DNA from: Thermosynechococcus vestitus BP-1
Lineage (GTDB): Bacteria; Cyanobacteriota; Cyanobacteriia; Thermosynechococcales; Thermosynechococcaceae
Length of the DNA stretch: 64,000 bases
Direction of reading: 5' to 3'
Assembly (NCBI RefSeq): GCF_000011345.1
Contig: NC_004113.1
Span: forward strand, 2,170,001-2,234,000
Shown: in pieces, positions 21,287 to 49,817 of the stretch
Layout of the letters: each line of letters opens with the position of its first letter
How positions within the stretch are numbered: position 1 is the first letter of the stretch
The notes under the pieces: generated by a model
Seen by the model: the letters and a program-made list of their open reading frames with translations, nothing else
Database searches by the model: none
What the model was told of the DNA's origin: nothing
Made by a program: the position numbers and the translations under genes

Positions 21287-21662
21287 ACTAGCAACAATGG
21301 TAGTGAATTTACCCGCTGCACCGGGGATTCTGGCACTGAAGCCCAATGGGCAACTCCAACCCGGCCAAGACGACCGCTGGACCTTTACCCTGCGGTGTGG
21401 TGCTGATGCCGATGATCCCTCCGCGTTTATCTCTGTCAGTGGGGCGATCTCCCGGGTGCAGCCCGCTACGAATTTAGCAAAGAAACTTGGGAGCGATCGC
21501 CTGCAGGCAGCGGTTGAGGCGGGCCTTTGGTACGACACCTTGGCGATTTTGTCTGAGCTGCAGGGGAATGAAGCCACAGCAAACCTAGCCCGCAGCGAAT
21601 GGGTCGCTCTATTATCCGCCGTTGGTCTCGGGAGTATTGCCCAAGCGCCCCTAGTACAATAA
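21287..21662 (+). pseudogene. DUF928 protein, C-terminal remnant
   Basis: From the ATG at 21297, 121 codons match the C-terminal half of cyanobacterial DUF928 proteins: PAAPGILALKPNGQL, WTFTLRCGADADDPSAF, SGAISRV, then EAGLWYDTLAILSEL and ALLSAVGLGSIAQAPL. The N-terminal half, with the signal peptide and the usual FWFYVPY-type stretch, is absent. The frame begins exactly at the IS481-type end, and no matching sequence is found on the other side of the IS. The gene was therefore truncated by an IS-associated deletion. Its stop lies inside the rnpB promoter repeat. Confidence 0.75.
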
Positions 21663-21677
21663 AACGTACAATAAAAC
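21654..21677 (+). promoter_or_regulatory. Tandemly duplicated -10 region of rnpB
   Basis: GTACAATAAAAC occurs at 21654-21665 and again at 21666-21677 without a spacer. Each copy holds TACAAT, a good -10 hexamer. The second TACAAT (21667-21672) lies 8 bp before the expected rnpB 5' end (21681); the first would give a transcript 12 nt longer. No good -35 box is seen for either. The first copy also contains the TAA stop (21660-21662) of the DUF928 remnant. Confidence 0.7.
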
Positions 21678-24075: not shown

Positions 24076-24448
24076 GAAGGGGATCAAGCACCTCTACCTC
24101 TGGATTCAAATCTGGATTCAAATATTCTCCTAGCTCAAGAATTTTCCCTAATCCAGACACCATCAGCCTTAGAAGCATTTCTATCAGATTTGGAGGTGCT
24201 TGAATTTTCTGGAAACCCACTCCTAGAGAGAGATTGCGCCCCTAGGCAGCCGCAGATCTAAAAATTTTACAAAAATAAAATAATGATCAGGACTAGATGC
24301 TTGAAAATAGGTTGTGCTATAGTCGCTCCAGAGCACCTCCTGAGGGGGGTCAATGCTGGGAGTCTCTCACAGCCGAATCAATGGAAACGTGATATGCACA
24401 AAAGGGGGCTCGAGGGGCCCCCTGTGCTATGAGTCTGTCCCAGGTGAA
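24076..24448. other. Intergenic region with a tandem repeat and a strong hairpin
   Basis: 373 bp between ald and convergent cdsA with no gene that I can support. It holds the 12-bp tandem duplication at 24100-24123, an AT-rich stretch (24260-24300), and a hairpin about 24395-24426 (GCAC..AGGGGGC / GGCCCCCTGTGC) that could end transcription from either side. A 66-codon minus-strand frame (24020-24220) overlaps ald and matches nothing I know. Confidence 0.6.
24100..24123. repeat. Perfect 12-bp tandem duplication
   Basis: CTGGATTCAAAT at 24100-24111 is repeated at 24112-24123 without a spacer, in the ald-cdsA intergenic region. Confidence 0.9.
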
Positions 24449-25400: not shown

Positions 25401-25428
25401 GCCGCTACAGTAAAGCCGCTACAGTAAA
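25401..25428. repeat. Perfect 14-bp tandem duplication upstream of cdsA and sigG
   Basis: GCCGCTACAGTAAA at 25401-25414 is repeated at 25415-25428 directly, in the shared upstream region of cdsA and the sigma factor. Each unit contains TACAGT, a possible -10-like hexamer on the plus strand. The first copy starts within a HIP1 octamer (GCGATCGC, 25396-25403). Confidence 0.9.
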
Positions 25429-25585
25429 GAGTTTAATCTAAATTCACTAACGTTAAGGAAACATTAACAGACTCCTCGCGAAAACAGAACCGATGGAAAT
25501 GTCCTTGGCAAGCTATAACGGATCAAGGAACATCCTAGGGGCAAGGGCGTCATGAAAAGCAATTGGTCTGAGGTCGATTGTATCC

Positions 25586-34473: not shown

Positions 34474-34547
34474 GGGGAGTCAGGACGAAGATGGCCAAGT
34501 GGGTATAGGATCAGACGTGCTCATTGTATCGTGGTGGGAGACAGCCA

Positions 34548-35351
34548 ATGAACTCAGGGTTTTGGTCTGAGGTGCTGGAGACCTGTCAACAGATTCAACA
34601 GGTGGTTGCCCCCCGTTTGCTGGAGTGGGCAGGGCAGTCCCCCAGCGATCGCAAAGCCGATGGCAGCCTTGTTACCCGCGCCGACCTTTGGGCCGATCAG
34701 AAAATCACTGCGATGCTGCAACAGCAGTTTCCCCACCATGGCTGTTTGAGCGAAGAGGGAAACCATACCTACGGTGGTGAACAGTGGTGTTGGATTATTG
34801 ATCCCATTGATGGCACGACCAACTATAGCCATGGTCTGCCCATTTGGTGTATTGCCCTCAGTTTGCTCTACCAAGGCACACCCGTATTTGGCTATGTGCA
34901 CGTTCCCGGCTTGCAGCAAACGTTTCATGGCTTCTATCAAGCGCCTGACCATGCCAACGGTGCCTATTTGAATGGAAAGCCGATTCACGTTAAGGCCAGT
35001 GAGCCAAATTTGCAGACGTTTTTTAGCCTTTGTGCCCGCAGTACCGATGTGCTCAAGCGTTCCTTTCCTTGCAAAATTCGCATGTTGGGATCCGCCAGTT
35101 ACAATTTGCTGACCGTGGCCGCTGGTTATACCCTCGGGGCCGTTGAGCGCACACCTCGCATTTGGGATGTTGCCCCCGCTTGGCCGATTGTCCATGCGGC
35201 CGGTAGTCATTGGCAATGGTTGGACTCACCAGAAGCGTGGCAAAGCATGTTTCCCCTGCAGCCGGGACACGAGGCCGGGAGCCGTACCTTTCATACACTG
35301 GTGAGTGCCAGTCCCAGTTTGGGGCAATTTTTTGCAGCCTACATTGTTTGA
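34548..35351 (+). CDS. Inositol monophosphatase-family phosphatase
   Basis: 267 residues from ATG 34548, preceded by GGGAG. Metal sites of the family are visible: E of LSEEGNHTYGG, the WIIDPIDGTTNYSHG motif, and the second aspartate in RIWDVAPAWPIVHAAG. These Mg2+-dependent enzymes act on inositol phosphate, histidinol phosphate, PAP or fructose bisphosphate; the substrate cannot be fixed here, but the wording resembles the SuhB/histidinol-phosphatase side of the family. Confidence 0.9.
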   Translation: MNSGFWSEVLETCQQIQQVVAPRLLEWAGQSPSDRKADGSLVTRADLWADQKITAMLQQQFPHHGCLSEEGNHTYGGEQWCWIIDPIDGTTNYSHGLPIWCIALSLLYQGTPVFGYVHVPGLQQTFHGFYQAPDHANGAYLNGKPIHVKASEPNLQTFFSLCARSTDVLKRSFPCKIRMLGSASYNLLTVAAGYTLGAVERTPRIWDVAPAWPIVHAAGSHWQWLDSPEAWQSMFPLQPGHEAGSRTFHTLVSASPSLGQFFAAYIV

Positions 35352-35437
35352 TGCGCCAATAAATGTGATCAAAAATAAATGTGATAAATTCAAATTCAAA
35401 CAAATACAAAATAAATAAATTCATATAATAAAAAATC

Positions 35438-35922
35438 ATGCAAAGAAATTTCTATGAAACCGATTTTTCCACCTGGACACTCCCGTGGGCGCAAAGGCAG
35501 GAGACTTTGGCCACCTTGATATTGCCCACTTCGTTGAGGAAATTAAAACCTTGGCACGGCAGAAGCATCGAGAGCTAGAGAATTGCCTAGGAGAATTGCC
35601 TAGGAGTCTGGATTGGGCATCTCCTAAAGGGGGACTACCAGCCTGAAAAACGCCGTAAAAGCTGGCGAGCAACTATTGGCGAACAACGGCAGCCGTGGAG
35701 AAATTGATCCATCCAAACCCAAGCCTTCAGACCTACCGGGCGCAGGCGATCGCTAAGGCCTATAAGTCTGGCCAAGATTTAGGGGTTCGTGAAACTCCCT
35801 TGGACTACCCAGATCTCCCCGAAACCTGCCCCTACACCTTGGAGAAAGTCTTAGATAGCCAGTTTCCTTGCCCACAGAGACAAACTTCAGCCTCATCTAA
35901 GGGGAGGCTATACTGGCAGTGA
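35438..35922 (+). pseudogene. DUF29 family gene broken by frameshifts
   Basis: Read across three frames the plus strand gives the DUF29 pattern: MQRNFYETDFSTWT, then DFGHLDIAHFVEEIKTLARQ, then HLLKGDYQPEKRRKSWRATI, then LIHPNPSLQTYRAQAI and PETCPYTLEKVLDSQFP. DUF29 is a cyanobacteria-rich family of unknown function. The second shift is caused by the 13-bp tandem duplication at 35578-35603: deleting one copy restores the frame ..ENCLGVWIGHLLKGDYQ. The other two breaks (near 35490 and near 35690) look like single-base indels. An AT-rich 86-bp stretch with two AATAAATGTGAT copies lies just upstream. Confidence 0.85.
35578..35603. repeat. 13-bp tandem duplication that frameshifts the DUF29 gene
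   Basis: GAGAATTGCCTAG at 35578-35590 is repeated at 35591-35603. Because 13 is not a multiple of three, the insertion shifts the reading frame; removing one copy joins the DUF29 N-terminal and middle segments in frame. Confidence 0.92.
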
Positions 35923-35940: not shown

Positions 35941-36126
35941 ATGGACACCGCCCAAATTAAAGCTTTAGTGGAAAAAGCCCTAGAAGATAAAATTCTTACC
36001 CTCGAAGAACATGGCCAAATTATTGACGCCGTGCTTTCCGATGGCCAAATTTCTGAGGAGGAGGAAAAAATTCTACAGGAACTCCTCGAACGGGTTGCCT
36101 CTGGGGAAATTGATTCCCAATACTAG
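35941..36126 (+). CDS. Small acidic hypothetical protein
   Basis: 61 residues, almost wholly helical and acidic (KALEDKILTLEEHGQIIDAV, ISEEEEKILQELLERV), no Cys, no membrane segment. GGAG lies about 10 nt before the ATG. The two helices with DGQISEEEE give an EF-hand-like or TerB-like look, but no domain can be assigned. It ends overlapping the convergent YrdC gene by 4 bp. Confidence 0.65.
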   Translation: MDTAQIKALVEKALEDKILTLEEHGQIIDAVLSDGQISEEEEKILQELLERVASGEIDSQY

Positions 36127-49306: not shown

Positions 49307-49810
49307 ATGACTTCATCGCCAGACTATACTAAATTTCCCCTTGCCCTACTGTTGCTAGTGGTTCTAGGCTACGTACTTGTGGGCTGGTATTTGTCTGCCT
49401 ACCCTTGGATGTGGTCGGCCTATGCTTCTTTTTTTGCAGCTATTCTAACAGTGTTTCTCGTGGGTGGCACCTCTAGCCTCTTGCGATCGCGCCAGAGCAA
49501 CCCTAGAAATATCTTTAGCAGCTTAATGATGCGCGTGGGCACCCCCAGTCTCTTTACAGTGCTGGTGCTGAGTACCGCTGTGACCCTTGCCATTATTGCC
49601 TTTCGGGTCTTTAGCGTGATTGCTATTCTCATTGGTACGGAAATTCTCGTGCGGATTGAAATGAAAGCCGCTGGCTACAAGAACTGGCAAATTATGCTAG
49701 GGCTGATTCAAATGGCGATTTTAGGGGTGTTCATTGGCTGGAGTATTGGGCACTACCTACCATCCTCTCCAGAGCAATCATTATCCTTGCTAGTCCTAAA
49801 TCCTTGCTAG
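49307..49810 (+). CDS. Membrane protein of unknown function
   Basis: 167 residues from ATG 49307, with TAGGA close upstream and 2 bp after the HAD gene stop. Four membrane segments (about 10-28, 36-52, 82-106, 124-146). No domain recognised. Its last codons are altered by the 17-bp tandem duplication at 49784-49817: with one copy the protein would end LSLLVLKE, as it stands it ends LSLLVLNPC. The stop lies 2 bp from the convergent Crp/Fnr gene. Confidence 0.7.
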   Translation: MTSSPDYTKFPLALLLLVVLGYVLVGWYLSAYPWMWSAYASFFAAILTVFLVGGTSSLLRSRQSNPRNIFSSLMMRVGTPSLFTVLVLSTAVTLAIIAFRVFSVIAILIGTEILVRIEMKAAGYKNWQIMLGLIQMAILGVFIGWSIGHYLPSSPEQSLSLLVLNPC

Positions 49811-49817
49811 TCCTAAA
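49784..49817. repeat. Perfect 17-bp tandem duplication at a gene end
   Basis: TCCTTGCTAGTCCTAAA at 49784-49800 is repeated at 49801-49817, spanning the stop of the membrane protein gene and the last codons of the convergent regulator gene. It is the longest of the six tandem duplications. Confidence 0.92.

Follow-up and report, generated by a model that had tools for sequence, protein, structure and literature searches.

Short tandem duplications can arise by replication slippage, and a perfect 13-bp duplication of this form lies within the remnant of a DUF29 gene in the genome of the hot-spring cyanobacterium Thermosynechococcus vestitus BP-1. A literature search joining Thermosynechococcus, pseudogenes and tandem duplication returned nothing, and no paper came up for the whole word DUF29. 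Counts of pseudogenes, in turn, are available for several genomes of the genus: in the accessible part of PMC7005997, Table 1 gives 84 for CL-1, 944 for PKUAC-SCTE542, 70 for NIES-2134, 112 for NK55 and 0 for BP-1. The same paper puts NIES-2134 at 99.0% ANI to BP-1. Given the count of 0, pseudogenes seem simply to be unmarked in the BP-1 record as that table presents it, which suggests that the DUF29 remnant is likewise not marked as a pseudogene there. A link between DUF29 and HEPN toxins was considered and dropped; the main text of the candidate paper, in its accessible part, is without the whole word DUF29, and the passage in question has DUF294.

The window, that is, the whole stretch of 64,000 nucleotides that was analysed, comprises bases 2170001-2234000 of the 2,593,857-bp BP-1 genome (G000 in the genome comparisons), and positions are given in window coordinates unless genome coordinates are stated. 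The remnant and its surroundings comprise the following features:

34524-35351, plus strand: upstream neighbour, an open gene of the inositol monophosphatase family (PF00459)
35438-35922, plus strand: DUF29 (PF01724) pseudogene remnant, counted from the conserved ATG up to the point where the read-through ends, with Pfam matches in alternating frames and an alignment with nine other rows
35486-35488, plus strand: codon 17, TGG in BP-1, TAG in G003 and G008, CAG in seven of the seven other rows
35493-35494, plus strand: junction of a frame-shifting 7-base gap, from the alignment against G003, G008, G005 and the intact copies
35576-35578, plus strand: first stop (TAG) from the ATG at 35438, its last base being the first base of the repeat
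35578-35590, plus strand: copy 1 of the 13-bp unit, GAGAATTGCCTAG, read from the sequence
35591-35603, plus strand: copy 2 of the 13-bp unit, identical; two copies are present in no other aligned row, and G002 is without sequence here
35604-35606, plus strand: GAG, a 3-bp partial third copy and a short homology that slippage could have used
35691-35692, plus strand: junction of a frame-shifting 1-base gap, from the alignment
35875-35877, plus strand: lost stop, CAG where G003 has TAG, the frame continuing to a TGA at 35920
35941-36126, plus strand: downstream neighbour, a 61-aa ORF that no Pfam family matches, conserved around its start in G002, G003, G004, G005 and G008

The identity of the gene holds, as PF01724 is matched above its cut-off of 22.5 bits in pieces, at 63.4 and 28.0 bits in two frames. 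No single open frame spans the DUF29 domain in BP-1; instead, the domain is read in frames 2, 1, 2 and 1 in turn, with stops in each, and it is because of the 7-base gap that reading from the ATG meets its first stop at 35576-35578. Six reference translations were used in the comparison of frames. The original prediction had listed two single-base breaks in addition to the duplication. One of them is the 1-base gap at 35691/35692, but the other is the 7-base gap at 35493/35494, to which the lost stop at 35875-35877 has to be added. Both gaps are, like the duplication, private to BP-1 in the alignment. A single full product from the remnant was also considered and is refuted by the in-frame stops.

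The surroundings of the remnant show features of their own. The region before the ATG (35352-35437) is A+T-rich in BP-1, G003 and G008 and of different length there, and the first copies of G002, G004, G005, G006, G007 and G010 have a common shorter, different sequence in its place. On the other side, GAGGCTATACTGGCAGTGAC, upstream of the 61-aa ORF, is the same letter for letter in G002, G003, G005 and G008, with one letter changed in G004.

The duplication itself is as first described: two perfect head-to-tail copies of the unit at 35578-35603, followed by the GAG at 35604-35606, form an array of 29 bases with a period of 13, and the extra copy shifts the DUF29 frame by +1. Specifically, frame 1 gives DUF29-like residues ahead of the repeat (..HRELENCLG), frame 2 gives them past it (ENCLGVWIGHLLKGDYQPEKRRKSW), and G003, which has a single copy of the 13-bp unit, reads through the repeat site in one frame (ELKNCLGVWIGHLLKGNYQPEKRRKSW / ELKNCLGVWIGHLLKGNYQ). 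The claim that removing one copy joins two halves of the DUF29 reading frame is thereby borne out. Chance is not a fair account of the repeat, since 20 Markov shuffles of the window contained no array of period 12-20. The 26-letter duplicated sequence occurs in one of 11 genus genomes, BP-1 (up to three mismatches allowed), and the duplication is private to this genome. Perfect adjacent copies are combined with a single copy in relatives, as is typical of slippage-type duplications. Most simply, the duplication would have arisen when replication slipped from one GAG triplet to another 13 bases away; both triplets are found in the single-copy stretch of G006, but the left one is absent from G003 and G008, and a chance match of 3 bp is possible.

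Nine genomes of the genus have a DUF29 gene or remnant next to this upstream gene, whereas the two neighbours are widely separated in G001 and G009. As originally proposed, the remnant can be compared with intact homologues at the locus, two in G004 and one in G007, all of which are without the duplication. In G004 two DUF29 genes, A and B, lie in tandem and are both intact; G007 carries an intact A copy, with the downstream neighbour about 8 kb further on. All three genes are stop-free over 137 of 138 positions, with G004B and G004A scoring 181 and 178 bits over 137 of the 138 PF01724 positions. In G002 the single copy contains an in-frame internal gap of 43 residues. Six of the nine loci (BP-1, G003, G008, G005, G006 and G010) are broken by stops or frame shifts, the G003 copy by one TGA, two TAG stops and a frame shift and the G008 copy by TAG stops and a frame shift. 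The single copies of BP-1, G003, G008, G005 and G002 have in common an A-like start and a B-like body, which suggests that these single copies may stem from a collapse of the A/B pair by recombination. At codon 13 (35474-35476), BP-1 and the intact copies have the tryptophan codon TGG and G003, G005 and G006 have TGA, the same nonsense change; these three TGA carriers are broken copies and form no clade in the flank tree.

The original prediction further saw in the repeat a direct test of the order of events. This test can be run with the sister genomes, and, as far as it goes, its answer is the opposite of what had been claimed. The genomes nearest to BP-1, G003 and G008, are both without the duplication, and their copies are both broken. 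In a tree of the flanks, BP-1, G003 and G008 form a clade at 100%, the inside of which is resolved at only 55% and in conflict with the site counts: G003 and G008 share 181 sites and the other pairings 60 and 51, counted within the jointly covered portion of the 64-kb block with overlapping BLAST pieces skipped and 27-39 kb covered per genome. These counts make G003 and G008 apparent sisters, with BP-1 next to them.

Codon 17 and the distribution of shared changes over codon positions bear on the state of the gene before these three genomes parted. BP-1, G003 and G008 alone have T at position 1 of codon 17. By a count made by eye, a stop in their common ancestor requires two changes and a CAG ancestor three, and the shared T is most simply read as the trace of a stop that would predate the repeat, a reading ahead by one step. 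Changes common to the three genomes occupy 34 of 329 usable sites in DUF29 versus 14 of 676 in the neighbouring gene, and 19 of the 34, versus 3 of the 14, fall at codon positions 1 and 2 (unfiltered, Fisher p 0.054; codon-position and pair counts use only alignment columns present in G004B). Some other DUF29 copy matches 21 of the 34 shared changes; among the 13 that are unmatched, 10 are at codon positions 1 or 2, with p 0.007 versus the neighbouring gene (3/14) and p 0.012 versus the intact pair, both obtained with a filter that was picked afterwards.

Differences by codon position tell of the same loss of constraint: they number 16/15/20 between G000 and G003, versus 10/5/27 between the intact pair G004A and G007A (Fisher p 0.022). 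Coding constraint has been lost, and relatives hold an intact homologue at the locus, as is characteristic of a pseudogene. A second TAG is common to G003 and G008 and absent in BP-1 (CGG TAG GAG versus CGG CAG AAG), which indicates that part of their decay is their own. On the whole, the alignments favour a decay that would have begun before the three-genome split and hence before the duplication. A/B recombination can blur which of the changes are shared by descent, and within BP-1 nothing places the duplication before or after the private 7-base and 1-base gaps.

The explanation that we regard as very probable is that of a DUF29 pseudogene in which the duplication is one undated lesion, the gene being most likely dead already when it was struck. 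Under this explanation, the A/B pair would have collapsed by recombination into one copy whose start is A-like and whose body is B-like, and in the ancestor of BP-1, G003 and G008 this copy was probably under relaxed selection, perhaps with the stop at codon 17. Each lineage would then have gained its own stops or frame shifts, which are themselves plain in the sequences, and in BP-1 one of these lesions was the 13-bp tandem duplication, in a gene most likely already dead. As such, the duplication is probably one of several breaks and not the first. That it was instead the inactivating hit, with the other lesions following later and the G003 and G008 copies lost independently, we consider unlikely. 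The duplication is frame-shifting and private to BP-1, its two 13-bp units are still identical, and the second TAG of G003 and G008, absent in BP-1, places part of their decay after the split, all of which agrees with such a course. Identity of the units, however, is a poor guide to age, given that no change in 26 sites has a probability of 0.2 at an assumed 0.06 changes per site. Against this course, and against the original claim that the duplication inactivated the gene, stand the T at codon 17 in all three genomes, the shared changes, distributed over codon positions in the manner of a decaying gene, the two other frame-shifting gaps in the remnant, each of them sufficient, and the copies of G003 and G008, which are broken without the duplication.

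It is far less probable still that the remnant is a working coding sequence, for instance one in which +13 and -7 cancel and bring 35604-35690 back into the ATG frame. The -7 and the +13 do add up to +6, which returns the reading past the repeat to the frame of the ATG at 35438, and a 75-codon frame at 35695-35922 matches the final third of DUF29 at 40.6 bits. However, TAG triplets at 35576 and 35588 lie in the ATG frame ahead of the rejoined part, the 1-base gap shifts the rejoined frame again, and the differences from G003 show little third-position bias (16/15/20). Hardly any weight can be given, either, to an error in the genome record as the source of the extra 13 bases. The species is represented by a single record, and tandem repeats are a usual place for errors, but G003 and G004 have perfect short duplications about as often, which marks the class as natural, and the other lesions would remain in any case.

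Since the nearest genomes are without the duplication and yet have dead copies, the repeat can neither be used as a clock nor prove that a mutator is at work. Perfect arrays of period 12-20 number 17 in 800 kb of BP-1 (6 and 11 in two 400-kb samples), 10 in 400 kb of G003 (9 of them two-copy only) and 12 in 399 kb of G004 (7 two-copy only). A burst of short duplications specific to BP-1 was not supported by these figures, the sampled arrays being no commoner than in G003 or G004, and with a similar frequency in relatives no special mutator is needed. The window holds five arrays of period 12-20 (six unfiltered) versus 1.4 predicted from the 17 in 800 kb, an excess with Poisson p 0.013 for five and 0.003 for six, uncorrected for the repeats having been noticed first.

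Other perfect tandem duplications of 12-17 bp in the window are located at 21654-21677, 24099-24123, 25401-25429 and 49783-49817. The duplications at 21654, 24099, 25401, 35578 and 49783 were not found in two copies in the blocks of G003, G008, G004 and G002 (up to three substitutions allowed), G008 being aligned only from 24471 on, such that its block may miss the places 21654 and 24099. Across the 64-kb block, private tandem duplications of at least 12 bp number five in BP-1, none in G003 and two in G008, numbers that are too small to establish different rates, and none emerge from the larger samples. G003 also has shorter tandem insertions, one of 9 and one of 7.

Decay is not confined to this locus, as the other three DUF29 loci of BP-1 are all broken or truncated, each in a different way (genome coordinates):

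564871-565170: DUF29 locus with stops and a gap
2342411-2342841: DUF29 locus with stops and a frame shift
2410795-2411004: truncated DUF29 locus, second half only, with a 99-aa open frame

The counterpart of the last of these in G008 is free of stops, and BP-1 is missing about 0.9 kb of the locus. Across the genus, DUF29 matches that are free of stops and span 130 or more of the 138 positions number five each in G001, G004 and G007, four in G009, three in G002, one each in G005 and G008, and zero in BP-1, G003, G006 and G010, with the assemblies of G005, G006 and G010 consisting of 80-220 contigs. The repeated independent breakage at the locus and the lack of a stop-free full-length copy in BP-1 or G003 lead to the idea that this branch of the genus might be losing its DUF29 genes as a set, as though some partner or common need of the family had gone; we offer it tentatively and as a rather doubtful one. 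Family-wide decay of DUF29 could help to find its function, by directing attention to what else has been lost in the same lineages.

Among solved structures a single relative of the DUF29 family was found, 3fcn, described as alpha-helical and of unknown function (Pfam01724), which is matched by a profile of six intact DUF29 members with an E-value of 1.7e-5; a structure search with a single sequence returned no relative at 0.001. As best supported, the intact DUF29 protein is small and mainly helical, and this lineage manages without it. With slippage duplications the repeat shares its perfect adjacent copies, its 3-bp partial third copy and the single copy in relatives, and no difference from them was seen, the mechanism itself being unreadable from sequence. 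The repeat illustrates that a striking lesion is easily taken for the cause of a gene's death. Finally, other Thermosynechococcus genomes have 70-944 annotated pseudogenes per genome, versus 0 listed for BP-1 in the accessible part of the published table, and the DUF29 remnant is an ordinary pseudogene.
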